Part shown: positions 8,211 through 55,378 of the stretch, piece after piece
How positions within the stretch are numbered: position 1 is the stretch's first letter
Layout: each line of letters opens with the position of its first letter
Source: an uncultured Lachnospiraceae bacterium
Lineage (GTDB): Bacteria; Bacillota; Clostridia; Lachnospirales; Lachnospiraceae
DNA length: 64,000 bases
NCBI GenBank assembly: GCA_947623905.1
Contig: CANQHX010000002.1
Span: 1-64,000, forward strand
Reading direction: 5' to 3'
The notes under the pieces: model-generated
Seen by the model: the letters and a program-made list of their open reading frames with translations, nothing else
Database searches by the model: none
Told to the model about the DNA's origin: nothing
Made by a program: the position numbers and the translations under genes

Positions 8211-8837
8211 CTAGTATATTAGCTTATACTGGACTTCCTCGATTACTTCCGTGACAAAGTTCACGAAACGCATGGTCAGCGCTGCAACCAGAGCAATAGA
8301 GGCCCAGATCAAAAGCATTGCGCAGATGGCGATGACTACCACACCAATGGCCTTGAACATGGTATAGTGGTTCATTTCCTTCAGGTTGACAAACAACAGG
8401 AGCAGTGTCCAGAACAGTGCCAGATTGTTGATGGTGTTGTACATGCCTGCCTGACCGGCGTCCATCGCGTTGGTAGCAATGGTCAGGGGAATATGGATCA
8501 CAATGTAGGGAAGCAGGGAATAACAACAGGCCAGCAGGCACTCGCGGAACATTACCTCACCACTCATGATGGTCGTTACGGCATAGGATGCAACTGCCCA
8601 TGTAACGATAGGCACCACGACCATCAGACACTCCGTCAGCAGATTGGCGTTACGAAGGTTTACGGTACGCAGAGGATAATGAGTCACGTACATGGAAAAG
8701 ATCTTCGTAAATACCATAAGCAGCAGAATGATGATGATGGGGAGATAATTGAACCGTTTTTCGCGGTCCTTCTTCATGTATTCAAATGCTACAAGGGGAT
8801 GAAAGACCATAACCGCAAATAATTTTACATATTTCAT
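8211..8837 (-). CDS. YIP1-family-like integral membrane protein
   Basis: 208 residues with five hydrophobic segments, starting at about residues 30, 65, 95, 130 and 160. The short soluble N-terminus resembles bacterial YIP1-domain proteins. Its start ATGA overlaps the stop of the upstream NHL/TPR gene by 4 bp, showing tight coupling. In this gene cassette the three accessory genes (NHL/TPR, YIP1-like, DUF5696-like) always sit between transporter genes, which suggests a membrane assembly with the solute-binding system; that partnership is inferred. No catalytic motif is visible. Confidence 0.7.
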   Translation of the reverse strand: MKYVKLFAVMVFHPLVAFEYMKKDREKRFNYLPIIIILLLMVFTKIFSMYVTHYPLRTVNLRNANLLTECLMVVVPIVTWAVASYAVTTIMSGEVMFRECLLACCYSLLPYIVIHIPLTIATNAMDAGQAGMYNTINNLALFWTLLLLFVNLKEMNHYTMFKAIGVVVIAICAMLLIWASIALVAALTMRFVNFVTEVIEEVQYKLIY

Positions 8838-10282
8838 TTGTCCATATCTCCTCTCATCTCAATATTGAACGACCATCTGTCAACATTCTTTTTCAGCTTA
8901 CGATAGCCGTATACCCACGCGATGAGCACTGCCAGGATGATCACTACTATAATAAAGAAGTAATCCCGCAGGAAATCGTGACGGTATTCGCTGAAGCTGG
9001 TGGAATATCCTTCCGTGTCGTTTGCAGCAGTATAGTGTTCCATAGACTGCTTGTAATCTCCCTCTTTGTACAGGATCTTGCCGATACCCTTGTGCGCCAG
9101 GGAGTAGTTGGAGTCGATACCCAGCACCTCCTGCCAGTAGGATTTTGCTTCCTCATATTTACCGTCAGCCTGCTGGTTGATGGCTGTATGTACAAGCTGG
9201 ATAAATCCTGTGGGGCTGAATACCTGAATGTTGTTGGTACCATAGTCCAGGATGTACAGAACACCGTTCTCGTCCACTGCGAGGCTGAGGGGCGTGGTGA
9301 ACACGCCGTCACGGTTGCCGATGCCGCCGAAGGTAGCCAGCAGGTTGCCTTCTTTGTCATACTGGTAAACCAGTCCGGTATTTCTGTCCAGCACGGTAAT
9401 GATACCGTCATGGTCAACGGCGATATCGTTGAACGTAGGAAGAGTAGGCGTATACTCGCCCTGCTTGAACACGTTGAAGCCGTATGCCTGTTCCGGATAC
9501 GTATTGGAACCCACGGAGTTCAGACGCCTGATCTGGCCGCTGGTACCCTCGGACAGTACGCCGTAGGTGTTGCCGTCGCTGGCGATCAGGAAGTTATTGT
9601 ACGCGGTAGGCTCCAGCTGCTCGGTAGACTTGATCTGTTCCTTGGTACCGAATGTACGGATCAGGAAACGGGTCAGGCTGAATCCTACAGGCATAGCGCC
9701 CATGTAGTTGAGGAACTCGCCCTTGGAGTTCATCTTCATGATATTTGCACCTTTCAGTGCAAAGATGTTGTTCATGTCGTTCACGTAGATCTTCTCGATA
9801 TCGAAGGTGAAGTCGGCACCCAGAACATCGGAGTCGGGTTTGTGGAATTCCTTCTTATATTTACCGTTCTTGTCTACGATAACGATACGCTGGTTCATGG
9901 TGTCGGCGATCCAGATGTCGCCGTTTTCATCATCTACATAGACACCCTTGGGCTGGCTCAGGCTACCGTTGGCTTCGTCCACTACCAGATCCACATCGCC
10001 GCTCTTTGTCATGCGGAGCACCCGGTTGTTCTGGGTGTCAGCCACATACAGATGCTGGGTAAAATCGCTGTAGAAAATATCCTCCGGTTTGTTAAGGAAG
10101 CCGGCGTCTCCCATGTTCTTGATGGTCCTTGTTACGGTGTAAGCCTCCGGGATAGGGATACGCTCGCCGTCCGTATCAAGGATGAAGCTGTTGCTCGTTG
10201 CAGCAAATGTGCTGATGGCAGACATCAGGACAAGAGTGAGGGCAAGAACAACCGCTGTGATACGCTTTGTTATCTTTTTCAT
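8834..10282 (-). CDS. Membrane-anchored NHL-repeat propeller protein with TPR segment
   Basis: 482 residues. An N-terminal signal peptide ends near AAT/TFAA (residue ~28). Beta-propeller NHL repeats follow, for example LNKPEDIFYSDFTQHLYVAD, LSQPKGVYVDDENGDIWIAD and TTPLSLAVDENGVLYILD. A TPR-like pair comes next (KYEEAKSYWQEVLGIDSNYS, LAHKGIGKILYKEGDYKQS), then one membrane helix (about 440-460) and a short charged tail. It is therefore an extracytoplasmic propeller held by a C-terminal anchor. It is likely a scaffold or binding component of the glycan-uptake system; enzymatic activity (such as lactonase) is not supported because no metal-site pattern stands out. It is preceded by permease genes with a 12-bp gap. 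Confidence 0.78.
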   Translation of the reverse strand: MKKITKRITAVVLALTLVLMSAISTFAATSNSFILDTDGERIPIPEAYTVTRTIKNMGDAGFLNKPEDIFYSDFTQHLYVADTQNNRVLRMTKSGDVDLVVDEANGSLSQPKGVYVDDENGDIWIADTMNQRIVIVDKNGKYKKEFHKPDSDVLGADFTFDIEKIYVNDMNNIFALKGANIMKMNSKGEFLNYMGAMPVGFSLTRFLIRTFGTKEQIKSTEQLEPTAYNNFLIASDGNTYGVLSEGTSGQIRRLNSVGSNTYPEQAYGFNVFKQGEYTPTLPTFNDIAVDHDGIITVLDRNTGLVYQYDKEGNLLATFGGIGNRDGVFTTPLSLAVDENGVLYILDYGTNNIQVFSPTGFIQLVHTAINQQADGKYEEAKSYWQEVLGIDSNYSLAHKGIGKILYKEGDYKQSMEHYTAANDTEGYSTSFSEYRHDFLRDYFFIIVVIILAVLIAWVYGYRKLKKNVDRWSFNIEMRGDMDK

Positions 10283-40455: not shown

Positions 40456-41634
40456 TTACTCATTGTGTGTTTTTATGTGACGTGCGGCCTCCTGGAGACT
40501 GTGATACACCGCCGCGCCGGGGAGGATCTCCGGACTGTCTGCCGTGCAGGCAAAAGTGCCCCATATGTACATGTCATAACCGCCGTTATTCTCCACAAAA
40601 CAGGTAGTGCGGGGCGTAACGCGCCTAAGTCCGTACAGCTTTGCCCAGCCCCCGGGCACGTCAATATAAGAGGACGCCAACACCATCCACAGGCATGTGA
40701 GCAAAAACAGCGGCGCCTTCAGCCACCTTACCCGCGGACGCCCATCGCCTATCAGTTCTATCCTTCTCCTCAGTTCCCGGAAATTGCCCCTGTCAAACGC
40801 CGCCCCGAAGAAAAGTCCGTCCTGTCCCCCTGCCGCCGCGGCGCACAGGCATTCCATATACCGTGTCCGCTCCGCCTCCGTCATCCCGGCGGTGATCCTC
40901 CTGTCGTTGTCCAGTTCCGTCAGGCGGAAAAACACTTTTCTGACGTACCACATGACGGGATCCCACCAGTACAGGACACAAAAAAGCTCCATGACTCCTT
41001 TCCGGAAAATATCATGGCTGCGCAGATGCCCCTCCTCGTGAAGCAGAATGTAATAGAGCTGTTCCCGGCTGCAGGATGACGCGGGCAGGATCAGACAGGG
41101 GCGGCGTATCCCTGTGAGAAACGGCGTCCGAAACTGCCGGGACCGGACAAGCCGTACCTTTTCCAAATCTCTGAACGTCTCTTTTTCCAGGCCATGGTTC
41201 GCCAGCAGCTTTTCCCACGGCTCCTCCTCCATGGCCGCTGTCACACGGCGAAATGCCCGATAATTATGAACCTTATGCAAAAGTACCAGGACGGCCCCTA
41301 TGACCCAGACAGCGGTGAGCACATGCCACACCCGGATCACGCCGCCAAAAAGGACGGTCCTTCCGCTGAAAAAAGCCATCTCACGGCCGGAAAAGACAGG
41401 GAACACAAGGAACCGGCGCACCGGCTCCGTCAGAAATGTGAGCCTTTCATCATATACATAGGAAAATCCAAAGGGCAGCGTCTGCCGCAGGATACATGCT
41501 GCCATGAGAAGCATGACGCACCCCGGCCCCGCCAGCCTTACGATCCTGCGGCTGCTGCCATACAGACACAAAAACAGGAGCATGGCGGAACAGAACAGAC
41601 ATCTGGCTACAAGAGCAAAAAACGAACTATCCAC
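40456..41634 (-). CDS. BlaR1/MecR1-type M56 membrane metallopeptidase
   Basis: 392 residues. Four hydrophobic segments at the N-terminus, then the cytoplasmic zinc-protease core with HEEGH (about residue 200; HExxH) and the downstream DNDRR motif (about 248). The usual C-terminal beta-lactam sensor domain is absent: after the last helix (~320) there are only about 70 residues. It overlaps the BlaI-like repressor gene by 8 bp. It would cleave that repressor when stimulated. The inducer is probably not a beta-lactam; antimicrobial peptide or cell-wall stress is possible. Confidence 0.85.
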   Translation of the reverse strand: MDSSFFALVARCLFCSAMLLFLCLYGSSRRIVRLAGPGCVMLLMAACILRQTLPFGFSYVYDERLTFLTEPVRRFLVFPVFSGREMAFFSGRTVLFGGVIRVWHVLTAVWVIGAVLVLLHKVHNYRAFRRVTAAMEEEPWEKLLANHGLEKETFRDLEKVRLVRSRQFRTPFLTGIRRPCLILPASSCSREQLYYILLHEEGHLRSHDIFRKGVMELFCVLYWWDPVMWYVRKVFFRLTELDNDRRITAGMTEAERTRYMECLCAAAAGGQDGLFFGAAFDRGNFRELRRRIELIGDGRPRVRWLKAPLFLLTCLWMVLASSYIDVPGGWAKLYGLRRVTPRTTCFVENNGGYDMYIWGTFACTADSPEILPGAAVYHSLQEAARHIKTHNE

Positions 41635-42046
41635 GGCGCTTCCTTTCCCGGATGAGCCTTTCCAGCTCCTCCACTTCCTCTTCCGTCATGGCCTCCTCCC
41701 CGTCGTCCTCCAGAAGGGCGGCCACCAGCGCCGTCACATTTCTTTTTCCGCTTCCCCACACGCTTTTCTGCAGCCGGGAAAGCTCAGCTCCCAGGTACGT
41801 CTCTCTGTCAAAGCAGGGCCGGAAGGTACGGGCGTACACATTGGACACCAGAACATGCTCATGCACCGCCGCCCCGCCTTTGGCCACCAGACGGTTCATG
41901 GCCTGGGTCACAGAAGCCGGGCTCAGCTTCTCCGCCTTCAAGGCAGCGGAGATCTCCTGTATGGTCACAGGGGCATCCTTCTCCCAGAGAACGCCCATGA
42001 TCTTCAATTCTACGTTAGTCAGCGCGGGAATACCTGTTTTCTTCAT
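41627..42046 (-). CDS. BlaI/MecI/CopY-family transcriptional repressor
   Basis: 139 residues from the ATG at 42046 (GGAGGT 4 nt upstream). Winged-helix domain (LTNVELKIMGVLWEKDAPVTI, SPASVTQAMNRLVAKG) and a C-terminal dimerisation helix (MTEEEVEELERLIRERKR), as in BlaI. It is cotranscribed with a BlaR1-like protease, its presumed inactivator. Likely targets are its own promoter and perhaps the adjacent lipoprotein hydrolase operon. Confidence 0.9.
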   Translation of the reverse strand: MKKTGIPALTNVELKIMGVLWEKDAPVTIQEISAALKAEKLSPASVTQAMNRLVAKGGAAVHEHVLVSNVYARTFRPCFDRETYLGAELSRLQKSVWGSGKRNVTALVAALLEDDGEEAMTEEEVEELERLIRERKRRG

Positions 42047-42130
42047 CACAACCTCCATTCTATAACTGCCATTCCAAAACGTTCATACCGCCGAAGGGCC
42101 TGGAAACCGGACTTTTTCAGGCTTCCCTGT

Positions 42131-44493: not shown

Positions 44494-45219
44494 TTATGCC
44501 GTCTCCCCGCTGTTGTCCGGCACTGCCAGCTTTATCACATCGGTCTCTACAGTGGCGGCTGTCTCCCGCGATCTGTCCGGTACCTCGGCCTGAAGGATCT
44601 TCTGGTTCAGGGACAGCATGCGGCTGTCCAGCTCCCACACGATATCGGCACACTCTTTTAACTGCTCCCACATATAATCGGGGGCGTTGCCCTCAAACTT
44701 GTAATGGATCTTGTGCTCCAGGCTGGCCCAGAAATCCATGGCGATGGTGCGGATCTGTATCTCCACCTTCACATCCACCACGTTGTCGGACGTGAAAATA
44801 GGGATGGAGATGAGCATATGATAGCTCCTGTAGCCGTTTGGCTTGGGATTGCGGATATAATCCTTGATGCCCAGTATCTTCACGTCCGTCTGGGCCTCCA
44901 GCATACTGGCAATGGTGTAGATATCCGTCGTAAAGGAGCAGATGACCCGCAGTCCGGCAATGTCCTTCACGCACTCCACCATATTTTCAATGTTGATCTC
45001 CCTGCCGTAGTGCCGCAGCTTCTTTACAATGCTCTCCGGAGACTTGATCCGGGATGTCACATGTTCGATCGGGTTATATTTATGTAAACTGCTGAATTCG
45101 TCCCGCAGTATTTCTATCTTTGTATTGACCTTTTTCAGTGCCGAGCGGTACAGAAACATGGTGGAATCCCATGCGTCCGCCGGATCCTGATTCATGGCAG
45201 AATCCATCATCCCATTCAT
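44494..45219 (-). CDS. Small alarmone synthetase (GTP pyrophosphokinase, RelQ/RelP type)
   Basis: 241 residues, single RelA/SpoT synthetase domain, no hydrolase, TGS or ACT domain. Motifs KDIAGLRVICSF, IRNPKPNGYRSYHM and VEIQIRTIAMDFWASLEH carry the ATP/GTP-binding and catalytic Glu residues. It makes (p)ppGpp in the cytoplasm. A short repeated tail (RETAATVE, VPDNSGETA) follows the domain. It lies 34 bp downstream of the kinase-like gene at the end of the BMC region. The start could be the ATG at 45210 rather than 45219, because an AGAAGG site abuts the first ATG. Confidence 0.9.
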   Translation of the reverse strand: MNGMMDSAMNQDPADAWDSTMFLYRSALKKVNTKIEILRDEFSSLHKYNPIEHVTSRIKSPESIVKKLRHYGREINIENMVECVKDIAGLRVICSFTTDIYTIASMLEAQTDVKILGIKDYIRNPKPNGYRSYHMLISIPIFTSDNVVDVKVEIQIRTIAMDFWASLEHKIHYKFEGNAPDYMWEQLKECADIVWELDSRMLSLNQKILQAEVPDRSRETAATVETDVIKLAVPDNSGETA

Positions 45220-45252: not shown

Positions 45253-46056
45253 TCAGTCCTTCTCATGGTCGTACCAGCCCGCGGTATCCTCCATGATCAC
45301 GGTGCCGATGCCGCTCTTGCTGAACAGTTCCAAAAGCAACGCGTTCTTCACGCCTCCGTCAATGACATGGACTCGGTGAACCCCCTTTTTCACCGCTTCC
45401 GTGCCGCAGCGGATACAATCCTGCATATACGGGCTGTAGCTTTCCACCGGCATCTCCCCCAGCTGCTCCAGCGTGAGGAAGGAATACACCTGCGCGCTTT
45501 CTGCCGCGTCCTCCGCATCCTCGCCTGCGCCATAGAAAGGATCTCCGTCCCCGGCGCCCTCCACGGCGTCCTCATGGGGACGGACCGGGATCCCCCGCTC
45601 TCCCGAAAGGAAGATCAGCTTGTCGGCGCCCATGTTCACCGCGATCTCCACCGCGGTATCCCGCTGGTTGATATCCTCATTTTCATTGTCGATGTCGTTG
45701 GGCACCACCACGGGGATATAACCGTTTGCCACCATCATATCCAGCGTCTGGTAATCCACGCCGCAGATACCGATAGCTTTTACGCCGCTCAGCTCGATGA
45801 GCTTCGCGATCCGTTTATTTTCCCGGAATTTGTCCATGCCCATGCGGCACCCGTGAACTACCACAGGTTTCATGCCCACGGATTTTAAGATAACAATATC
45901 CTGCATGAGCTCCCGCTCAGCTACCCCTGACAGTTCTTCCACGCAGTCATATACAATGACCACGATCTTCTGGTTAAAATCCCGGATGTAGGGCAGCGCG
46001 TCAATGAGCACAGACGCCTTCCTCTCCAGAATATTCATATGTTCCTTTTCCAGCAT
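45253..46056 (-). CDS. Acetylglutamate-kinase-like protein with degenerate active site
   Basis: 267 residues. The fold and N-terminal pattern (VLIDALPYIRDFNQKIVVIV) match ArgB acetylglutamate kinase, and the C-terminal DGGVKNALLLELFSKSGIGT matches its nucleotide-binding end. The family catalytic Lys is replaced by Val (IVVIVYDC, residue ~35; family pattern KYGG), and the substrate/phosphate motif HGGGP is changed to HGCRM (about 67-71). The acidic insert EDAVEGAGDGDPFYGAGEDAEDAAE is unusual. It is therefore probably not a normal arginine-biosynthetic kinase; a regulatory or altered-substrate role is plausible. It follows the BMC operon after 134 bp and precedes the alarmone synthetase. Confidence 0.7.
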   Translation of the reverse strand: MLEKEHMNILERKASVLIDALPYIRDFNQKIVVIVYDCVEELSGVAERELMQDIVILKSVGMKPVVVHGCRMGMDKFRENKRIAKLIELSGVKAIGICGVDYQTLDMMVANGYIPVVVPNDIDNENEDINQRDTAVEIAVNMGADKLIFLSGERGIPVRPHEDAVEGAGDGDPFYGAGEDAEDAAESAQVYSFLTLEQLGEMPVESYSPYMQDCIRCGTEAVKKGVHRVHVIDGGVKNALLLELFSKSGIGTVIMEDTAGWYDHEKD

Positions 46057-46109: not shown

Positions 46110-46138
46110 GATGGAGTGGCCAAACACTCCACTCCATC
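46110..46138 (-). terminator. Possible hairpin terminator after the BMC operon
   Basis: GATGGAGTG (46110-46118) and CACTCCATC (46130-46138) form a 9-bp stem; on the minus strand a short T run (GTTTTGAG) follows. It is 53 bp beyond the stop of the PduT-like gene. The weak tail keeps this tentative. Confidence 0.4.
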
Positions 46139-46190: not shown

Positions 46191-46697
46191 CTAGATCAAT
46201 GTCTTTACAAAGTCCCTGGAGGGGTTCGGGATCACTGCCGTGTCCAGGAGCACGCCATCCTCCCCCACTTTTGCCGCCGCGGAGGCAATGGCCTCAGTGA
46301 CTGCCGCCACCGTTCCGGTGAGGAACAGATAGGATTTGCCGCACATGCCCCTTGCCACCCGGATCTCAAACAGCTCCACGTCGGCGGTCTTTGCCGCGTG
46401 ATCCGCCGCCACGATAATGGCCGCCGCGGTGAACGTCTCCAGTACGCCCAGCGCCTTCACATCGCCGATATCACTTGTGCAGGTGAGAGCCCGGAAGATG
46501 GATTCATGCGGCCGCTGCGCGGCGTCCGTTGCCGCCCGCACGGCGCTCAGGTCTCCGGCATACATGACAATGAATTTGCCGGGGCACACAGTCTGGGCCT
46601 GCAAAAGCTCCACATCCGCCGTCTTTACGATAATATCGGCGGCCTTCACACCGGTGGAAACGGTCTTGTACTCTACCATTCCAATGGCTTTTTTCAT
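46191..46697 (-). CDS. pduT: BMC shell trimer with tandem BMC domains and Fe-S site (PduT-like)
   Basis: 168 residues from the ATG at 46697. Two BMC folds: residues 1-~85 (KKAIGMVEYKTVSTGVKAAD) and ~88-168 (KALGVLETFTAAAIIVAAD). Cys38 lies in TVCPGKF, the position and local sequence of the pore 4Fe-4S ligand in PduT. It would form a pseudohexameric tile carrying electrons across the shell to or from PduS. A GTG at 46703 is an alternative start with better ribosome-site spacing; the ATG gives Cys38. The AGGAGG site overlaps the pduS stop, so translation is coupled. Confidence 0.93.
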   Translation of the reverse strand: MKKAIGMVEYKTVSTGVKAADIIVKTADVELLQAQTVCPGKFIVMYAGDLSAVRAATDAAQRPHESIFRALTCTSDIGDVKALGVLETFTAAAIIVAADHAAKTADVELFEIRVARGMCGKSYLFLTGTVAAVTEAIASAAAKVGEDGVLLDTAVIPNPSRDFVKTLI

Positions 46698-46705
46698 CGT
46701 CACGC

Positions 46706-48034
46706 TCACCTCCTGATGATAATTGCCTGATCTGTCACTTCCGCTACGGTGCCGTCAATGCTCCCGTGAAGGCAGACGCCCAGCGCGCCCTCCGGAGGCC
46801 GGCCCACGATCTGACCTGCCGACACCACATCCCCTGCCTTTACACAGGGCACGCAGGGTGCGCCGATGCTCTGGCGAAGGAGCAGCGTCACTTCCGACGC
46901 GTCCTTTCCAGACTGCAGAGGCGCAGGCACGTCAAATCCGGCAAGGCCCAGCCGCTGCACCAGACGGTGCTCCGGCACTTTCCGGTCTTCCCGGTGAAGA
47001 TCCACAGGCTTCATCTCCCTCTCAGGAGGCTGCACGCCCGCGGCTCTCAAGCCCGCCTTATACTCATCCAACAGCTTTCTGGGAGAAAGCCCCTGATGAC
47101 AGGAATACATCTCGCACAGACCGCAGGATACACAGAAAAATGAATTCAGATAGGTGTTGGTCACATCGGAAGAGGTAAGTCCGTTGGCCAGGGCCCGCAT
47201 GAACTCATGGGGCTTGATGGCGCCGCCCAGAAGATTTCTGGGGCACAGCGATGTGCACATAGAGCACTGAGAACACACGCTCATGGCGTTCCGGATATCA
47301 TGGCGGGTGCTGCTGCGCCTGTGAAGAATGGGAGGACAATCCGGAGGCAGTACAAGAACCGCCTTCGTAGTCTTCGTCACCACATCTGACTCCGTACAGA
47401 TCCGCCCGGTCATGGGGCCGCCCATCAGGAGCACGTACTCATCTGTGGAAGTCCCCCCGGCCATCTCCAGGAGAGATCTCACCGTAACGCCTACCGGCAC
47501 TTCCAGCGTCACCGGGCGGTTTACCAGCCCGGCCACCGTGAGGAACTTGTGGATCACATTGGTCCCGTCAGTCACCTTGCGGTACAGATTCAGCACCGTC
47601 TCCACATTGACCACCACGCATCCCACGGTAATGGGGATCTTGCCCTGAGGCACCACTTTCCCGGTGCACTCGTATATGGTCACCACTTCATCTCCGGCAG
47701 GATAAATGTCCGGTAATATATGTAATCTTAATCTGGGATATTCACTGATACAACTGTTGACGGCGTCGATAGCGGCGGTATAAGACTTCTTTACCGCAAG
47801 GATCCCTTCCCCTGCGCCAAGCGTCTCCACCAGCATGTTCATGCCGCCCAGTATTTCTTTCACATATTCCGTCACGAGCTGGCGGTCCACCTTCATCAGC
47901 GGTTCGCATTCCGCGCAGTTCATGATCACCGTCTCTGCCTGATCGGAAAGCTTGGCGTAGGTGGGGAACCCGGCGCCGCCTGCGCCTACTACGCCGCCCT
48001 CCTGCAGAGCGCTCTTCAACTCATTTATGTTCAT
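46706..48034 (-). CDS. pduS: PduS/RnfC-like Fe-S, SLBB-domain electron-transfer protein
   Basis: 442 residues. Flavin/NADH-binding RnfC fold at the N-terminus (GVVGAGGAGFPTYAKL), then an SLBB region (GLVNRPVTLEVPVGV). Two ferredoxin motifs, CSQCSMCTSLCPRN and CVSCGLCEMYSCHQG (about residues 255-315), hold two 4Fe-4S clusters. In propanediol BMCs PduS is a cobalamin reductase. No B12-dependent enzyme is nearby here, so it probably serves as an electron conduit, likely paired with the PduT-like Fe-S shell protein. Family is secure; the electron acceptor is inferred. Confidence 0.9.
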   Translation of the reverse strand: MNINELKSALQEGGVVGAGGAGFPTYAKLSDQAETVIMNCAECEPLMKVDRQLVTEYVKEILGGMNMLVETLGAGEGILAVKKSYTAAIDAVNSCISEYPRLRLHILPDIYPAGDEVVTIYECTGKVVPQGKIPITVGCVVVNVETVLNLYRKVTDGTNVIHKFLTVAGLVNRPVTLEVPVGVTVRSLLEMAGGTSTDEYVLLMGGPMTGRICTESDVVTKTTKAVLVLPPDCPPILHRRSSTRHDIRNAMSVCSQCSMCTSLCPRNLLGGAIKPHEFMRALANGLTSSDVTNTYLNSFFCVSCGLCEMYSCHQGLSPRKLLDEYKAGLRAAGVQPPEREMKPVDLHREDRKVPEHRLVQRLGLAGFDVPAPLQSGKDASEVTLLLRQSIGAPCVPCVKAGDVVSAGQIVGRPPEGALGVCLHGSIDGTVAEVTDQAIIIRR

Positions 48035-48064
48035 CTGATACCATCCCCCACTGATCTGCTTTGG

Positions 48065-48346
48065 TTACTGTTCCACGATCACGATCTTGTTGGGATCGTC
48101 CACGATACCCACGATACAGGCGTCCACGGGAGAAGTGGTCACGTCGCATGCCATCCGCGCGGCGCTGCCTGTGGATACGAGCACAATATCATGAATGCCG
48201 GCGCCCACATCATCCACTGCCACGATGCGGTCGCCCACATACCCTTTCATCTTTTCCATGGGGTCAACGATGAGAAACTTGTTGCCCACCAGTTTGGGAT
48301 TTTTTCTGGTACAGATCACCGTACCTACCACTTTACCGATTATCAT
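48065..48346 (-). CDS. BMC pentameric vertex protein (EutN/CcmL/PduN family)
   Basis: 93 residues from the ATG at 48346 (GGAGGA 4 nt upstream). Core sequence MIIGKVVGTVICTRKNPKLV, LIVDPM, VAVDDVGAGIHDIVLV and GSAARM matches the EutN/CcmL OB-fold family that caps the vertices of the shell. Only one is present in the locus, as is usual for a minimal shell. Confidence 0.95.
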   Translation of the reverse strand: MIIGKVVGTVICTRKNPKLVGNKFLIVDPMEKMKGYVGDRIVAVDDVGAGIHDIVLVSTGSAARMACDVTTSPVDACIVGIVDDPNKIVIVEQ

Positions 48347-48384
48347 ATTCTCCTCCATGTCCCCGGAGGGACACCGAAAAACAG

Positions 48385-49035
48385 TTATTTGATGAGAATA
48401 CCCGTATCCTTGCCTACGTTCAGGCCGTTTGCCTCGTCGGTATCAATGTGCATCTCCAGAGTAAAGGATTTGTCTACCCGGATCTGCACCCCTTCAAACA
48501 CACCGCCCCGGCCGTTGTCAAAGCGCACCTTCACCGTATCCCCGTCCTTCACGCCAAACCTGGCGGCGTCTTCCGGAGACATATGGATGTGCCGCTTCGC
48601 GATGATGCAGCCTTCCTTCAGATACAACACTCCCTGGGGTCCTACCAGGGCAATGGGCGCGGAGCCCGCGATATTGCCGGACTCCCGGATAGGGGGATTC
48701 AGGCCCAGACGAATGGCGTCGGTCTTGGCCACTTCCACCTGGGAAGCCTTCCGCTCCGGTCCTAAAATGCGGACATTCTCAATGGCGCGGAGCTTGGTGC
48801 CCACAAGGGTGACGCACTCTTCCGCCGCGTACTGTCCGCCCATAAGCTCTTTTTTCTTATGTAACTGATACCCTTTGCCAAACAGCGCCTCCACATGCTC
48901 CCTGGTGAGATGCACGTGGCGGGCGGAAACGCCGATGGGGATCCGGTCGCCGGAATCATAGCCGCCAAGGCCGTTCACCTGCTGCACTACCTGCCGGGTG
49001 ATCAGCTCCACCAATTTTTGTTCATCCATAGCCAT
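48385..49035 (-). CDS. pduL: PduL-type phosphotransacylase
   Basis: 216 residues. The two Zn-binding motifs ARHVHLT (about 38-44) and KRHIHMS (about 147-153) of PduL are intact. The N-terminal helix (DEQKLVELITRQVVQQV) is amphipathic, like BMC-targeting peptides. It exchanges the acyl group of acyl-CoA for phosphate to give acyl-phosphate and free CoA inside the compartment, recycling CoA for the aldehyde dehydrogenase. The acyl group (lactyl or propionyl) follows from the aldehyde used. It lies between the shell genes of the same operon. Confidence 0.95.
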   Translation of the reverse strand: MAMDEQKLVELITRQVVQQVNGLGGYDSGDRIPIGVSARHVHLTREHVEALFGKGYQLHKKKELMGGQYAAEECVTLVGTKLRAIENVRILGPERKASQVEVAKTDAIRLGLNPPIRESGNIAGSAPIALVGPQGVLYLKEGCIIAKRHIHMSPEDAARFGVKDGDTVKVRFDNGRGGVFEGVQIRVDKSFTLEMHIDTDEANGLNVGKDTGILIK

Positions 49036-49113
49036 AGCCTTTCCTGTTGCACGATAAAGAACGCAGGAAAAACCCCTGGGGGTCTTTCCTGCCGGTCACT
49101 ATTCAGTACGCTC

Positions 49114-49392
49114 TCAGTTCAGTGTGGGCAGGATCTGCTCCACATCAGAATGGGGCCTGGGGATCACATGTACGGCGATCACTTCGCCAAGCTTTGCCGC
49201 GGATGCGGAACCAGCCTCAACAGCTGCCTTTACGGCGCCTACGTCGCCCCGCACCATAACGCTTACCAGTCCGCTGCCGATCTTCTCCGTGCCGATCAGC
49301 GTTACATTTGCTGCCTTACACATTGCATCGGCTGCCTCGATAGAAGCTACCAGACCACGTGTCTCAACCATACCTAAAGCCTGCAGTTCCAT
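49114..49392 (-). CDS. BMC hexameric shell protein (PduA/EutM-like)
   Basis: 92 residues, single BMC domain: [39 protein letters not shown] and [10 protein letters not shown]. It would form the main facet hexamer. The sequence is close to the gene at 49766-50044, including a 35-nt identical stretch (49139-49173 equals 49791-49825). The two are a recent duplicate pair. AAGGAGG-type site precedes the ATG at 49392. Confidence 0.95.
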
Positions 49393-49429
49393 AGTGTTAC
49401 CTCCTTATAATATTCACTGTTGGATTGGT

Positions 49430-49729
49430 TTAATATGTTATCTTGCCAAAGCCGTTTCTCGCAGCACTCTTCGCCACCAGCTTCATGGTCTCCTCATGAG
49501 GATTGGCGATGACCGCGTGGGCTACGATATTTCCCTTTGCCCTGGCCAGGGCAGTCTCCACAGACGCGTTCACCGCGGAGACCTGACCCTGTATAAAAAT
49601 GGTCACAAGACGTCCGCCGAGCTTCTTTTCCCAGGTGAGAAACCGCACATCCGCTGTCTTGAGCATAATGTCCAGCGCTTCCACCGCGTCTGCCAGATTA
49701 GGTAATTCAATGAGTCCAAGTGCTTTCAT
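49430..49729 (-). CDS. BMC hexameric shell protein, divergent
   Basis: 99 residues from the ATG at 49729. MKALGLIELPNLADAVEALD and DVRFLTWEKKLGGRLVTIFI are a BMC fold, but it differs from the facet pair: 'LPN' replaces 'ETRG' near the pore-lining loop region and the C-terminus is extended (KLVAKSAARNGFGKITY). It is likely a minor tile with a distinct pore. Lies between the duplicated facet genes. Confidence 0.9.
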   Translation of the reverse strand: MKALGLIELPNLADAVEALDIMLKTADVRFLTWEKKLGGRLVTIFIQGQVSAVNASVETALARAKGNIVAHAVIANPHEETMKLVAKSAARNGFGKITY

Positions 49730-49765
49730 GCAAACCTCGTTCCTGTGCTGCGTTACATACATTGA

Positions 49766-50044
49766 TTATTTGATCAGGGGCAGGATCTTCTCCACATCAG
49801 AATGGGGCCTGGGGATCACATGTACTGCCACCAGCTCGCCCAGCTTGCCGGCTGCTGCAGCGCCTGCGTCAGTAGCTGCCTGTACGGCGCCTACATCGCC
49901 CCGCACCATAACGGTCACCAGTCCGCTGCCGATCTTCTCAGTTCCTACCAGCCTTACGTCTGCGGATTTTACCATTGCATCGGCTGCCTCGATAGAAGCC
50001 ACCAGTCCGCGTGTCTCAACCATGCCCAAAGCTTCCTGTGTCAT
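49766..50044 (-). CDS. BMC hexameric shell protein (PduA/EutM-like)
   Basis: 92 residues from the ATG at 50044, chosen because AAGGAGG lies 8 nt upstream; an ATG two codons earlier is too close to it. [41 protein letters not shown] and [10 protein letters not shown] match a typical BMC-H fold. Near-duplicate of 49114-49392. Confidence 0.95.
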
Positions 50045-50148
50045 AATCATATCCTCCTTAAATCTTAAATTCCTAAGTCCTTCATGTTCAACGCCGTGCC
50101 GCCCTGAGACCGCCGGCAAAAAATTTACATACTACCTGAAATTATACC

Positions 50149-50451
50149 TTATATGGCGCTGAGTTTCAACAATTTTTCCGTGTCCTCGGTGGGATTGGCG
50201 ATGATGTATCGGCTCACAACGCCTGTGGTCTTTTTTGCCGCCGCCTCGGCAGCGTCCATGGCCGCCTCCACGGCAGCCACGCTGCCCCTCATCTTCACGA
50301 TCATCACAAGGGGCACCGGCAGTTCGTCTGCATTGGCGGGCTTATTCTTGTCCAGAGCGTCTATGGTCACGTCCGCGGTCTTGCAGGCAGCCTCCGCCGC
50401 CACAAACGCCGCCACGCATCCGTATACCTCCAGCAATCCTGTCGCTTCCAT
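50149..50451 (-). CDS. BMC hexameric shell protein with an insertion
   Basis: 100 residues from the ATG at 50451 (GAGG 7 nt upstream). EATGLLEVYGCVAAFVAAEA and GSVAAVEAAMDAAEAA are typical of BMC-H, but NKPANADELPVP (about residues 36-47) is an insertion between strands that can alter the pore or the concave face. It directly follows the alcohol dehydrogenase gene. Confidence 0.9.
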   Translation of the reverse strand: MEATGLLEVYGCVAAFVAAEAACKTADVTIDALDKNKPANADELPVPLVMIVKMRGSVAAVEAAMDAAEAAAKKTTGVVSRYIIANPTEDTEKLLKLSAI

Positions 50452-50477
50452 ACCCACACCTCAATTCTGCCTTACTG

Positions 50478-51683
50478 TCAGCTGTTGATCACAATGGCGA
50501 TCTTCAGTCCTTCCATGGCCAGGTTGGTCTCCAGGGCCTCGTTGATCTTCTCCAGAGGGAACCGGTGGGTGATCAGCTTGCTCATGGGAAGGCCGATGTC
50601 CTTGGCGCTCTTCAGGAAATCAAACGTAGTGGCGTAATCCCGCAGGGTGTACACCCAGGAACCCACCGTGGTGATCTCCTTGGAGCATATGTCAAAGTGG
50701 GGATTGATGGTAGCGTCCCCGCCGTTGATAAAGAAGCCCAATTCACAAAGACCGCCGCCGTTGCGGATGAATTTGTAAATGTTGGAGTGTGCCACGGGAG
50801 AACCGGTACACTGGAACGCGAAATCTGCCAGATAGCCGCCGAACGCGTTCTTTACCGCTTCCGTCAGGGCCTCGATGCCCTTGTGGTCCTTGAAGTTCAC
50901 CGTATTGCCGGCGCCCATCTCCTTTGCGAAGGAGAGCCGTTTCTCCTCGCCGTCCACAGCCACGATGTTCTGGATGCCCATGGTCTTTAAGATGGCGATG
51001 CAGATAAGGCCGATGGGGCCGCAGCCCTGTACCACTACCCTGCTGTTGAACCGGAGGATCCCGGTGGTCTTCGCCCGCTCCACCGCGTGGATCAGCACGG
51101 CGCAGGGCTCGATGAGGATCCGGCTGTCCAGATCCAGATCGCTTACGTTGAAGATGGTGGAGCCGCCCCGCACAAGGAGATAATCAGCAAACCATCCGTT
51201 CAAATGCACGTCGTCGTCAGGCAGGAGGCCGTACACGTCGGCGCCGCCTACGTTCTGCTTGTTTAAGTCAAACATGGTGATGTCAGGGTTGTCCTTGAAG
51301 ATCATGCAGGTAACTACCTTGTCACCCAGATGCAGATCTTTTCCGGCGGAATCCTTCTTTACATTCTTGCCCATCTTTACGATGGTGCCGGTGCCTTCAT
51401 GTCCCAGCACCACGGGGATGAGGCCGAAGGGATCCCGTTTGAACTCGTGGGCGTCTGTGCCGCACACGCCGCAGCCCTCCACCTTCACCAGCACGTCGTC
51501 ATCCCCCACCTCAGGGATAGCGTACTCCTGGATATCAAAGTGGCCGGTGGATGTGAGCATTGCCACACGGGACTTGGCGGGGATGGGGCCCACAGAAGCG
51601 CCGCCCGCCGAAGGCATGGAGCCGGAGCTGCGCATCTCTGCCAGCACCTGCTGCACGATACTCTCAATATTGTTCATATCCAT
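50478..51683 (-). CDS. Zinc-dependent alcohol dehydrogenase with N-terminal BMC-targeting peptide
   Basis: 401 residues. Residues 1-20 (MNNIESIVQQVLAEMRSS) form an amphipathic helix followed by a Gly/Ser/Pro-rich linker, as in cargo targeting signals. The catalytic domain is a medium-chain zinc dehydrogenase: GCGVCGTDAHEF (Zn Cys), GHEGTGTI (His/Glu), Rossmann motif VQGCGPIGLICIA (about 190-205) and a probable NAD-binding VDGEEKRLS. It would reduce the aldehyde to an alcohol (1,2-propanediol or 1-propanol) and reoxidise NADH made by the aldehyde dehydrogenase inside the shell. Direct sequence support for family and signal; the substrate is inferred. Confidence 0.88.
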   Translation of the reverse strand: MDMNNIESIVQQVLAEMRSSGSMPSAGGASVGPIPAKSRVAMLTSTGHFDIQEYAIPEVGDDDVLVKVEGCGVCGTDAHEFKRDPFGLIPVVLGHEGTGTIVKMGKNVKKDSAGKDLHLGDKVVTCMIFKDNPDITMFDLNKQNVGGADVYGLLPDDDVHLNGWFADYLLVRGGSTIFNVSDLDLDSRILIEPCAVLIHAVERAKTTGILRFNSRVVVQGCGPIGLICIAILKTMGIQNIVAVDGEEKRLSFAKEMGAGNTVNFKDHKGIEALTEAVKNAFGGYLADFAFQCTGSPVAHSNIYKFIRNGGGLCELGFFINGGDATINPHFDICSKEITTVGSWVYTLRDYATTFDFLKSAKDIGLPMSKLITHRFPLEKINEALETNLAMEGLKIAIVINS

Positions 51684-51724
51684 ACTCTGTTCTCCAATCC
51701 GCTGTCTTTACAGCATTTACTTTC

Positions 51725-53134
51725 CTACCGGATGCACAGCGCGTCGCACATGACGCATCTTCTGCTCTTGGTAAAGGTCTTGGCGGAGGTGAGTCCCTCG
51801 CCGGTACGGCTGCAGATGGTAAAGGTAGGATACCCTTCGCCGCCGAAGCCCAACGCCGCGTAGGAAGGGCCGTTCTTCACGAAGATAGCCGTATCCAGCG
51901 CCTTGCCGTATCTGGTAAGGTTCTGTACGTTGGTGGAATGCATGTGAGCGGAATGGCGGTTGCCGTGCTCCAGTTCCACAGCGGTCTCAATGCCCTCGTC
52001 CACATCCTTTACCCGGACGATACCCAGAATAGGCATCATCAGCTCCGTATCGATAAGGGGATGCTTCTTGTCCCCCTCGAAGATGATGCAGCGCACGTCG
52101 GGACCGGCCTCCACGCCGATCATGCCCAAAAGCACCTTTGCGCTCCGGCCCACGCACTTACGGTTTAAGATGCGCTTGCCATTCTTCTCTACCAGCACCG
52201 TCTTCACAAGCCTGTCCACTTCATCGTCGCTGGCATAATAGCAGCCGGTCTGCTTCATGCAGGAGATCAGCTCGTCGGCGATGGAATCCACCGCCACCAC
52301 TTCTTTCTCCGCGATGCAGGGCAGGTTGTTGTCAAATGTACATCCGTTTACGATATCCTCTGCCGCCTTGGGGATGTTGGCCGTCTCATCCACCAGTACG
52401 GGGGGATTGCCGGCGCCGGCGCCCATGGCCCGCTTGCCGGAAGACAGCACCGTGGTCACCACGCCGGGACCGCCGGTAGCCACCAGAAGGCTGATATCTT
52501 TATGTTTGAATATAGTCTGGCTCACCTCGATGCTGGGCTCGGCTACCGCCACCGCCAGATTGGCGGGGCCGCCTACCTCCACGCAGGCCCGGTTCACCAG
52601 GTCAATGGCCATATTGGATACGTTCTTCGCGCCGGGATGGGGCGCGAACACCACCGAGTTTCCGGCGGCCAGCATACCGATGGTATTGCACAGCACCGTC
52701 TCGGAAGGATTGGTGGAAGGGGTCACGGCGCCGATCACGCCGAAGGGTCCCTGCTCCACAAGAGTCAGGCCCCGGTCGCCGGACCACGCCTGTGTGGACA
52801 GATCCTCCGTGCCGGGGGTCTTCTCCGCCACCAGCTGATGCTTCAGGATCTTGTGGCCCACATTTCCCATGCCGGTCTCCTTCACGCCCAGCTCCGCAAA
52901 GGCTCTGGCATTTTCCATGATCTTTTTGCGGATATTGGCGATGATCTTCTCCCTAAACTCCAGGGGCATGGGCTGGATCTCCTTCTGTGCCTTCTTCGCG
53001 GCGGCGATGGCGTCTTCTACATTGTCAAAGATGCCCATGAGCTGCCCGCCGCCCTGTGCGGATCCGGTATTGGCCTGAATGCCGTTTATGACGTCACGAA
53101 CAATTCTCTGAATCTCCTGTTCATTCAAAGCCAT
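51725..53134 (-). CDS. CoA-acylating aldehyde dehydrogenase with BMC-targeting peptide (PduP-like)
   Basis: 469 residues, typical for PduP/EutE. The N-terminal LNEQEIQRIVRDVINGIQ is an amphipathic targeting helix. Core motifs: VGVIGAVTPSTNPSE-like region (GPFGVIGAVTPSTNPSET), the catalytic Cys in FDNNLPCIAEKE (about 270) and the cofactor-binding KSVV-type segments further along. It oxidises an aldehyde to acyl-CoA with NAD+ and CoA, then PduL makes the acyl-phosphate. It follows the aldolase (69 bp) whose product it would use. Confidence 0.93.
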   Translation of the reverse strand: MALNEQEIQRIVRDVINGIQANTGSAQGGGQLMGIFDNVEDAIAAAKKAQKEIQPMPLEFREKIIANIRKKIMENARAFAELGVKETGMGNVGHKILKHQLVAEKTPGTEDLSTQAWSGDRGLTLVEQGPFGVIGAVTPSTNPSETVLCNTIGMLAAGNSVVFAPHPGAKNVSNMAIDLVNRACVEVGGPANLAVAVAEPSIEVSQTIFKHKDISLLVATGGPGVVTTVLSSGKRAMGAGAGNPPVLVDETANIPKAAEDIVNGCTFDNNLPCIAEKEVVAVDSIADELISCMKQTGCYYASDDEVDRLVKTVLVEKNGKRILNRKCVGRSAKVLLGMIGVEAGPDVRCIIFEGDKKHPLIDTELMMPILGIVRVKDVDEGIETAVELEHGNRHSAHMHSTNVQNLTRYGKALDTAIFVKNGPSYAALGFGGEGYPTFTICSRTGEGLTSAKTFTKSRRCVMCDALCIR

Positions 53135-53154
53135 TCATATACCTCCTGTCTTGC

Positions 53155-53179
53155 CGAGTTTGCCGTCAGGCAAATCTCG
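53155..53179 (-). repeat. Small inverted repeat resembling the 4-kb repeat
   Basis: CGAGTTTGCC-gtca-GGCAAATCTCG between the aldolase and ALDH genes. It resembles the GATTTTGCC/GGCAAAATC hairpin of the 3987-4114 repeats. It may be a processing or partial termination site that sets the ratio of aldolase to downstream genes. Confidence 0.55.
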
Positions 53180-53203
53180 CCGAGAATAACGCGCCGCGTT
53201 TTC

Positions 53204-54010
53204 TCATTTCATCTGCGCTAAAATCTTCTTTGTCACTTCCGCAACCAGCTTCTCCACGTCCGCGTCACTTGCGCCTGCAGCGCTCTCGCCGTGGCAGCCG
53301 TGGCAGCCGCCGCCGCACTTGCCACCCAGCTCCGCGCACAGATTTGCGGGATGCTTGCCGGGAAGACCGAACTGACGGCGGATCTCATACAGGCGGAGCA
53401 CCTGCTCATGGGACAGAGCCTTGGGGCCGCCCAGCTGACGTGCCTTGTACAGCAGCTCGGCGTAAAATTCAAGAGACTCCATCTTGTGATATGCGGACAG
53501 CAGATCCACGCTGTAGGACAGCGCGCCGTGGTTCTCCAGCAGCACCGCGTCATAGTAAGGCAGGTACTTCTCTACCGCGTCGGGGATCTCCGTTGTGGAA
53601 GGAGTGCCGTACTCGGCGATGGGTACGCAGCCCAGGGCAATGACTGCCTCCGGCATGATAGGCTCAGTAAGAGGGATGCCTGCAATGGCAAAAGCGGTAG
53701 CAAAGGTAGGATGGGCATGTACCACAGAGCCTACGTCCGGTCTGCACTTGTACACGCGCATATGCATCTTGATCTCTGAAGAAGGCTTGAAATTGCCGTT
53801 TGCCTGGATCACATTGCCCTCCTTGTCCACCTTGCAGATGTACTCAGGGGTCATAAATCCCTTGGACACGCCGGTAGGCGTACATAAAAACTCATTGTCA
53901 TTGAGTTTTACGGAGATGTTGCCGTCATTGGCGGCAACCATGTTTCTGTCGTAGATCCTCTTACCGATCTCGCAGATCTGCTTTTTGATTTCAAATTCGT
54001 TTACTGCCAT
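53204..54010 (-). CDS. Class II fuculose/rhamnulose-1-phosphate aldolase with C-terminal BMC-targeting peptide
   Basis: 268 residues. Class II (Zn) aldolase fold: VVAANDGNISVKL (phosphate-binding start), HAHPT (Zn His pair about 98-100), the catalytic Glu region and ENHGAL. Residues ~220-245 form a Cys/His-rich linker (GGKCGGGCHGCHGES) and residues ~248-268 an amphipathic helix, DADVEKLVAEVTKKILAQMK. The latter resembles BMC-targeting signals but at the C-terminus. The enzyme cleaves L-fuculose-1-P or L-rhamnulose-1-P to DHAP and lactaldehyde. It heads the operon with a sigma-A promoter 55 bp upstream. The sugar preference (fuculose versus rhamnulose) is not decided. Confidence 0.9.
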   Translation of the reverse strand: MAVNEFEIKKQICEIGKRIYDRNMVAANDGNISVKLNDNEFLCTPTGVSKGFMTPEYICKVDKEGNVIQANGNFKPSSEIKMHMRVYKCRPDVGSVVHAHPTFATAFAIAGIPLTEPIMPEAVIALGCVPIAEYGTPSTTEIPDAVEKYLPYYDAVLLENHGALSYSVDLLSAYHKMESLEFYAELLYKARQLGGPKALSHEQVLRLYEIRRQFGLPGKHPANLCAELGGKCGGGCHGCHGESAAGASDADVEKLVAEVTKKILAQMK

Positions 54011-54238: not shown

Positions 54239-55378
54239 TCAGGGGCGATAATGCGATTTCCCATACATTCTTCCCAGCTGGGGCTGCCCCATGGCGAACA
54301 ATGCCCGGTTGATCTGATGGATATCATAGATCCCGTTCTCAAGAAAATACCACAGGATCACGTCAGATCTTCTGGCCGCGCTGAAGGAATATCCCGCGCT
54401 CTGAAGAAGGTCCCGTGTCTCGTCAATAGACAGGCCCAGCCCCACCGCCCAGGCCATCACCTCCTGGATGTCCGGTACCGGAGGCCTGCGCCGGTAATAC
54501 ACCTTTATATCCCCCGGCCTGAGGTTGGCTCCCGCGCAGACCGCTCCGGATGTGGCTCTTTTCTGCTCCATATGCCGCATAAGCTGCCGGGCAAACATGC
54601 TGCCGTCCTTTTTCCGGCTCCCCGCCTCTTCCGACGGCCGTTTCTCCTCTGTTTTCCGGGACTTTCCGCCGCCGGAACGGAGAAACGCGTTCACGTCGAT
54701 CTCCTTTCCCAGCAGGTCCAGACGGGGCTCCTCCCGCAGGGTCGCCACCTGCTCCCTGTCGGCGCTGCGGTACAGTGCCAGCAGCTCCCGGAACTCTCTG
54801 TCCAGGCCGCCGGGCTGCGCTGCCCGGGATGTCCTTTCCGGAGAATGATCCTCGAAATAATATTCCAGATAGAAATCCAGATTTTTTTTGATCTGTTCAT
54901 TTAAAAACACCTGGCCGGCGTCCTCCGCGACAAGCCATATCTCCATGGGAGAATGGGACAGCTGACGGGCCACGCACTGTATCAGCACATCCATGGCCTC
55001 CTCCCCGGGATATCCGTGGATCCCCACAGACAAAAGGGGCAGGGCAACGCTTCTGCACTGTCTGGAACGTGCCGCGCGGAACACCGCGTTGTAGGTGTCC
55101 TCCAGTTCCCGCCGTTCTTCTCTTTTCCCGCCGTGCCACACGGGTCCCACCGCGTGGATCACGTATCTGGCAGGCAGCCGGTAGCCCGGCGTGATCACCG
55201 CATGCCCCGTCCCGCATCGCCCGATACGCCTGCAGGCGGCCTCCATGCGCTCTGCGCCGGCCGCCAGAAAAATATCCTGGCAGATGCCGCCGGTCATTCG
55301 CAGCTTATAATTTGCCATGTTTACAATGGCGTCCGTCTTCATTTTTGTAATATCGGTTTTTACGATCCGAAAGGGCAT
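54239..55378 (-). CDS. Macro-domain protein (ADP-ribose-binding) with helical C-terminal region
   Basis: 379 residues. Residues 1-~165 are a macro domain: DAIVNMANYKLRMTGGI (the family Asn/Gly motif appears as VNMANYKL), GTGHAVITPGYRLPARYVIHAVGP and ALPLLSVGIHGYPGEEA. It binds ADP-ribose or removes it from proteins. The C-terminal ~200 residues have an arginine- and glutamate-rich linker followed by helices (VMAWAVGLGLSIDETRDLLQS, AARRSDVILWYFLENGIYD) that resemble the small helical domain seen in other Firmicutes macro proteins of this type. It is between the SseB-like gene (41 bp upstream) and the BMC operon, and is probably not part of the latter. Confidence 0.85.
   Translation of the reverse strand: MPFRIVKTDITKMKTDAIVNMANYKLRMTGGICQDIFLAAGAERMEAACRRIGRCGTGHAVITPGYRLPARYVIHAVGPVWHGGKREERRELEDTYNAVFRAARSRQCRSVALPLLSVGIHGYPGEEAMDVLIQCVARQLSHSPMEIWLVAEDAGQVFLNEQIKKNLDFYLEYYFEDHSPERTSRAAQPGGLDREFRELLALYRSADREQVATLREEPRLDLLGKEIDVNAFLRSGGGKSRKTEEKRPSEEAGSRKKDGSMFARQLMRHMEQKRATSGAVCAGANLRPGDIKVYYRRRPPVPDIQEVMAWAVGLGLSIDETRDLLQSAGYSFSAARRSDVILWYFLENGIYDIHQINRALFAMGQPQLGRMYGKSHYRP

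Follow-up and report, generated by a model that had tools for sequence, protein, structure and literature searches.

A putative non-catalytic, arginine-responsive paralogue of N-acetylglutamate kinase in Lachnospiraceae

The window, by which we mean the whole 64,000 nt stretch of Lachnospiraceae DNA that was analysed, harbors on its minus strand a gene (45253..46056, stop codon included) encoding a 267-residue protein that resembles N-acetylglutamate kinase (NAGK, ArgB) and is termed pseudo-NAGK here; the features of this gene given below are all on the minus strand. An aldolase/aldehyde-dehydrogenase microcompartment (BMC) operon (46191..54010, minus strand), which we regard as a neighbour and not as part of the system, lies upstream on the same strand, and pseudo-NAGK begins 134 nt downstream of one of its shell genes. 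The operon contains genes for a class II aldolase, a CoA-dependent aldehyde dehydrogenase, an alcohol dehydrogenase (ADH) and four BMC-domain proteins, and further for PduL, an EutN-like protein, a PduS/RnfC-like protein and a PduT-like shell protein; the names class II aldolase and EutN are our own assignments from reading the translations. Upstream of the aldolase, the N-terminal part of an open reading frame at 54239-55378 reads in translation like a macro domain. The pairing of an aldolase with an aldehyde dehydrogenase is described for PVM-like and MIC BMCs (PMC8156839). Between the last BMC gene and pseudo-NAGK a terminator-like hairpin with a T-rich tail was detected (46111..46132, minus strand; -23.8 kcal/mol, z -5.06). 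A scan of the same interval gave no consensus promoter, which counts against an independent unit, promoter scans being weak (8 found, 8.2 expected). A gene for a RelQ-like small alarmone synthetase (44494..45219, minus strand) follows 33 nt downstream of pseudo-NAGK; its product scored 189.9 of 320 bits against the YjbM model, under the cut-off, and two further RelA_SpoT genes are present in the genome. Adjacent open reading frames at 40456-42058 read in translation like a BlaR1-type M56 peptidase and a BlaI-type repressor.

The window protein matched the amino acid kinase (AAK) family of Pfam (AA_kinase, PF00696; E 2.8e-9, 37.5 bits against a gathering score of 24.9). Its best sequence match in the PDB was T. 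maritima NAGK (2bty, E 6.7e-25). With the argB model TIGR00761 the whole protein scored 49.1 bits against a cut-off of 151.3, and the match to the NAGS model was far under its cut-off. In the PDB search 2bty, 2buf and 2jj4 aligned at both ends of the query, while E. coli NAGK (1gs5) and Thermus LysZ (3u6u, 3wwm) had their best stretch only within approximately residues 100-163. No GNAT acetyltransferase domain was matched by Pfam in the window protein, which ends after the AAK domain.

In a search of 299 genomes of the bacterial family, the window's own included, seven clear relatives were found besides the window protein, with 53-70% identity over about 150 residues and 42-52% over the full length. 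They share the block G-x-DKFRENK, which the window protein carries as GMDKFRENK (45814..45840, residues 73-81; one match in the window, 0 expected). This block was converted into a DNA pattern and a contig collection was scanned with it, yielding 36 loci, 32 of which encode the pseudo-NAGK family; the remaining four (L053, L055, L056 and L063) were discarded as chance matches. The 32 loci carry labels such as Coprococcus, Eubacterium, Claveliimonas, Mordavella, Lachnoclostridium, Lachnospiraceae, Clostridiales, Clostridia and Eubacteriales, one being labelled just 'bacterium'; nearly all are thus labelled as Lachnospiraceae or other Clostridia, and several genera are represented. Patterns seeded from the window protein found no relative in the contig collection, probably because the window copy is divergent. 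Within the bacterial family the DKFRENK-block pattern occurred in 9 of 397 genomes (reversed control: 0), which indicates a patchy distribution, although such scans could miss members without the exact signature. A wider occurrence was considered by searching 157 Clostridia genomes with a profile (E <= 1e-20); the 116 other matching genomes gave one match each, with at most 113.6 bits compared with 364.2 for the window protein, and by score and frame length these matches were taken as ordinary ArgB. The tail Y-x-H-E was rejected as a mark of the family, as several ArgBs of the bacterial family carry the same tail.

A genuine ArgB is present in addition. Exactly one argB over the cut-off (254-267 bits) was found in each of the nine genomes searched, and the window's own genome as well as 7 of 7 other pseudo-NAGK genomes tested hold an intact single copy. 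K-x-G-G, HGGG and the arginine motif are present in the argB of all nine genomes; the search expressions missed the second lysine in three of these ArgBs and the N-helix in one. In a tree of 30 pseudo-NAGKs (the window protein and 29 others), 22 ArgBs and the distant relative L047, the 30 full-length pseudo-NAGKs formed a single clade apart from ArgB (support 100/99). The window protein falls inside this clade on a long branch (1.09), and the ArgB of its own genome groups among the ArgBs. L047 (positions 8805-9602; genome G130), which had shown 31% identity in the search of 299 genomes, appears to be a second, separately degenerate ArgB paralogue. Like pseudo-NAGK it has lost the catalytic lysine and the glycine loop and kept the arginine loop; unlike pseudo-NAGK it retains the lid hairpin and the GGGFLPK lysine and lacks DKFRENK. 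As it did not join the pseudo-NAGK clade it was rejected as a distant member, although its placement is unsure since L047 and the window protein are both long branches.

For structure prediction an alignment of 25 members (A1) was used, comprising the window protein and 24 of the 32 loci, with three partial and five near-identical sequences left out. The AlphaFold2 model (pLDDT 87.7, pTM 0.86) was most similar to NAGKs in Foldseek. In VIA, whose list is limited so that fold families absent from it are still conceivable, the top match was the arginine-bound T. maritima NAGK 2bty (Z 27.8, rmsd 2.0, 223 aligned residues), covering model residues 9-259 with the N-helix included. The match to E. 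coli NAGK 1gs5 (Z 20.4, rmsd 2.7, 199 aligned) spans model residues 28-256, and the N-helix therefore lies outside it. Together the Pfam score and the predicted AAK fold place the protein in PF00696; a common fold with NAGK, as modelled, is no evidence of function. An acidic insert (45505..45579, residues 160-184 by alignment) is specific to the window lineage and missing from all 24 aligned relatives; residues 165-186 of the window protein, and most of the insert in the model, are predicted to be disordered.

The catalytic numbering of E. coli NAGK (EcNAGK; K8, G11, G45, D162, G184, G213 and K217) was taken from PMC3329491. In the window protein the first catalytic motif V-x-K-Y-G-G is replaced by VIVYDC (45943..45960, residues 33-38), with V35 in place of K8 and D37 C38 in place of the two glycines, and the glycine loop HGGGK is replaced by HGCRM (45841..45855, residues 68-72; H68 G69 C70 R71 for HGGG). 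The second catalytic lysine is also lost, C214 standing for K217. The features of EC 2.7.2.8, namely catalytic lysines, glycine loops and substrate-binding Arg, Asn and Asp, are absent from the window protein. The same losses run through the family. All mapped catalytic and substrate residues are present in 22 of 22 ArgBs; the first catalytic lysine and the second and third glycines of the glycine loop occur in 0 of 30 pseudo-NAGKs, which likewise kept G11 in one member and G44, G45, D162 and R66 (deleted) in none. N158 was retained by 4 of 30 and K217 by 6 of 30, the alignment around K217 being uncertain. Relative to ArgB two blocks are deleted, some 30 and 26 alignment columns long, and with them the substrate-binding Arg and the KDG lid hairpin. 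G155, which we take to be probably the ATP-site G184 of EcNAGK, is present in every one of the 30 members; the assignments of G10, G44, R66 and N158 are likewise our own, from counting. The earlier note had given the coordinates of this open reading frame correctly, and its ArgB-likeness, the exchange of the catalytic Lys for Val and of GG for DC, and the acidic insertion were all borne out. Its reading of the glycine loop as HGCRM was accurate; where it gave HGGGP as the consensus, the ArgBs of this bacterial family read HGGGK. It did not mention the lost second catalytic lysine or the two deleted blocks.

The residues of the arginine site have fared differently from those of catalysis. The window protein retains the N-helix core LPYIRDF of hexameric, arginine-inhibited NAGKs (45976..45996, residues 21-27) in a helix predicted for residues 2-27, which aligns structurally with 2bty from residue 9 onwards; in hexameric arginine-sensing AAKs such an N-terminal helix interlaces dimers. 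L21, P22 and Y23 are invariant in 30 of 30 pseudo-NAGKs and 22 of 22 ArgBs. K146 (45619..45621) aligns with what is, by our own counting, K196 of T. maritima NAGK, the arginine-site lysine of the central sheet, and is Lys in all 30 pseudo-NAGKs and all 22 ArgBs. The arginine-site loop reads ELFSKSGIGT (45301..45330, residues 243-252). Across the 30 members the site has kept its Lys (30), Glu (30), both loop glycines (30 and 30), loop Thr (29), H271 (29) and H268 (26), together with the Pro and Tyr of the N-helix (30 and 30); E17 of the N-helix became Asp in 22 of 30 and R24 became Asp in 30 of 30. The PaNAGK numbers used here (H268, H271, E281, G287, E17 and R24) were assigned to alignment columns again by our own counting. 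Of the 88 columns invariant in ArgB, 33 are conserved in 27 or more of the 30 pseudo-NAGKs; 6 of 6 such columns were kept in an arginine-site set (hypergeometric p 0.002) and 9 of 9 were lost in a catalytic and substrate set (p 0.011), both sets having been chosen from literature and motifs. In arginine-sensing AAK domains the published motif is E-(L/I)-(F/M)-(T/S)-x-x-G-x-G-T plus a key Lys and the Glu of the last helix, and the role of the Lys in the central sheet is described in the same source (PMC4490483); further accounts concern the arginine site of NAGK (PMC3329491) and arginine-site mutants of C. glutamicum NAGK (PMC10464499). The window protein, with ELFSKSGIGT, K146 and E243, conforms to this motif, Lys and Glu. 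The strict motif is present in 11 of 30 pseudo-NAGKs, the window protein among them as judged by eye; admitting F or M at position 2 brings the count to 29 of 30.

As read from the alignment, the catalytic lysine, glycine loops and substrate-binding parts have been lost throughout the family, and the N-helix and arginine residues have been kept. Selection on the family is purifying, in genomes that carry an intact ArgB as well. Having lost its catalytic site and retained its arginine-sensing site, pseudo-NAGK is probably a sensor or regulator, and we favour, with a probability of about 0.5, the reading that the window protein is a regulatory paralogue of NAGK that has given up catalysis and responds to arginine. 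This agrees with the repurposed kinase fold proposed in the earlier note, as does the proposed comparison of a predicted structure with ArgB, which returned 2bty first. Of the two findings that the note had named as refuting, neither was made: the searches gave no match to a catalytically active family that relies on a different lysine, and the genome does hold an intact argB. In the simplest scenario, a duplicate of an ArgB would have lost the active site while retaining the half that senses arginine. Arginine would bind between the N-helix and the C-lobe and alter the shape or assembly of pseudo-NAGK, which might regulate a partner as the acetyltransferase of N-acetylglutamate synthase is regulated by its AAK domain. 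As a guess, the likeliest partner would be the genuine NAGK, contacted via the common N-helix so that its arginine feedback is tuned. Several observations count against this reading: the strict motif occurs in 11 of 30 members, E17 is mostly and R24 always replaced by Asp, G155 is kept, no neighbour shared across the family points to a partner, and the window copy lacks H271 (N238 there) and sits on a long branch. The arginine-site residues could also be conserved for folding or assembly alone, and the need for a second sensor is not evident, given that the genuine ArgBs retain an arginine motif themselves.

Considerably less probable, though the strongest competitor, is a neofunctionalised cleft, in which the former active site has been given over to a different ligand or reaction via the newly conserved D75, R78, K85, C98, N120, D121 and E125, arginine being secondary or irrelevant. 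In nineteen columns, many with a charged or polar residue, all 30 pseudo-NAGKs agree where the commonest ArgB residue differs or is a gap, and the blocks DKFRENK and PNDID lie next to, or stand in for, substrate-binding parts. However, no known catalytic signature was recognised, the best structural matches are NAGKs, and the signature is partly inherited, N80 and K81 being invariant in ArgB too. A combination of both ideas is tentative: pseudo-NAGK may be a Lachnospiraceae-specific signalling protein with an arginine sensor and an emptied cleft (DKFRENK, PNDID) as new site for a partner or ligand, relaying the arginine level to a target besides or instead of NAGK. In the window lineage, a candidate for that target is the RelQ-like synthetase, whose gene follows 33 nt downstream.

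The earlier note had suggested a regulatory role from the gene's position after a BMC operon and before an alarmone synthetase; on that view pseudo-NAGK would regulate the BMC or the synthetase. Strand and close spacing to both neighbours speak for this, but the family does not bear it out and we consider it unlikely. When 19 window proteins were compared by tblastn with the 32 pattern loci (8 kb or less each, often lopsided), only pseudo-NAGK itself and one weak ADH match were found, and in 20 kb stretches around eight other loci the RelQ-like and BMC-operon proteins were absent and pseudo-NAGK alone was matched. RelA_SpoT genes occur in 9 of 9 genomes searched, but among the loci examined one adjoins pseudo-NAGK only in the window lineage, where it is the RelQ-like gene. 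BMC domains are lacking in 6 of 7 relative genomes, and the window genome and one other have them among the nine searched. Two further BMC-domain matches lie on another contig of the window genome (G000:C122:1040-1653). In addition, the terminator-like hairpin separates the operon from the gene. No conserved linkage to BMCs, by which a BMC-associated protein would be recognised, was seen among the members examined, nor any family-wide neighbour naming a partner; small subclades have neighbours of their own: several carry a GreA-like gene upstream, and in the Coprococcus comes group the gene is followed by a UMP-kinase-like cluster, both names being our own readings of the translations. A BMC or alarmone partnership was therefore rejected as a feature of the family, the place beside the microcompartment seems accidental, and such a partnership is possible within the window lineage only.

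It is similarly improbable that the window copy is a decaying duplicate argB without function. The long branch, the lineage-only acidic insert and the absence of both H271 and the Arg of DGR would fit decay, but the frame is open, the signature block and arginine loop are intact, and the family, found in several genera, is elsewhere under strong purifying selection as judged by substitution ratios: the median dN/dS was 0.19 (21 pairs within the dS range used) and 0.017-0.118 in ten pairs with dN < 0.1, these pairs excluding the window copy, which is without a close enough relative. Least probable of all is an active kinase with other catalytic residues, for although the AAK fold is retained and some annotated pseudoenzymes prove active (PMC10211241, PMC12037411), the catalytic lysines, glycine loops, bridging Asp and substrate Arg have disappeared from most or all members, and a deletion has removed the lid hairpin.

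To our knowledge, AAK folds turned pure sensors are known mainly as domains within larger enzymes. Returning to pseudo-NAGK as an arginine-responsive paralogue, it is alike to the arginine-inhibited hexameric NAGKs of T. maritima (2bty) and P. aeruginosa (2buf) in fold, N-helix, arginine-site Lys and Glu and the G-x-G-T loop, and differs from them in lacking catalytic and substrate-binding features. With the AAK domain of NAGS (ArgA) it would share service in assembly and arginine sensing while activity resides elsewhere (PMC4490483 for NAGS), and the model matches NAGS 2r8v (Z 25.1, 220 aligned, rmsd 2.4). Unlike bacterial NAGS, it stands alone without an acetyltransferase domain, and ArgBs were closer in the PDB sequence search. 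The prozyme of trypanosome AdoMetDC is a catalytically dead paralogue that regulates the live enzyme (PMC5201418) and resembles pseudo-NAGK as a dead paralogue beside a live enzyme in the same genome; the enzyme is a different one, and the partner and effect of pseudo-NAGK are putative. Titles and the beginnings of abstracts, a coverage that leaves out most subscription journals, did not describe a dead NAGK standing alone. Recognising pseudo-NAGK would stop the annotation of such genes as a second argB, and if its arginine site is functional, the family would represent a free-standing, compact arginine sensor in gut bacteria.
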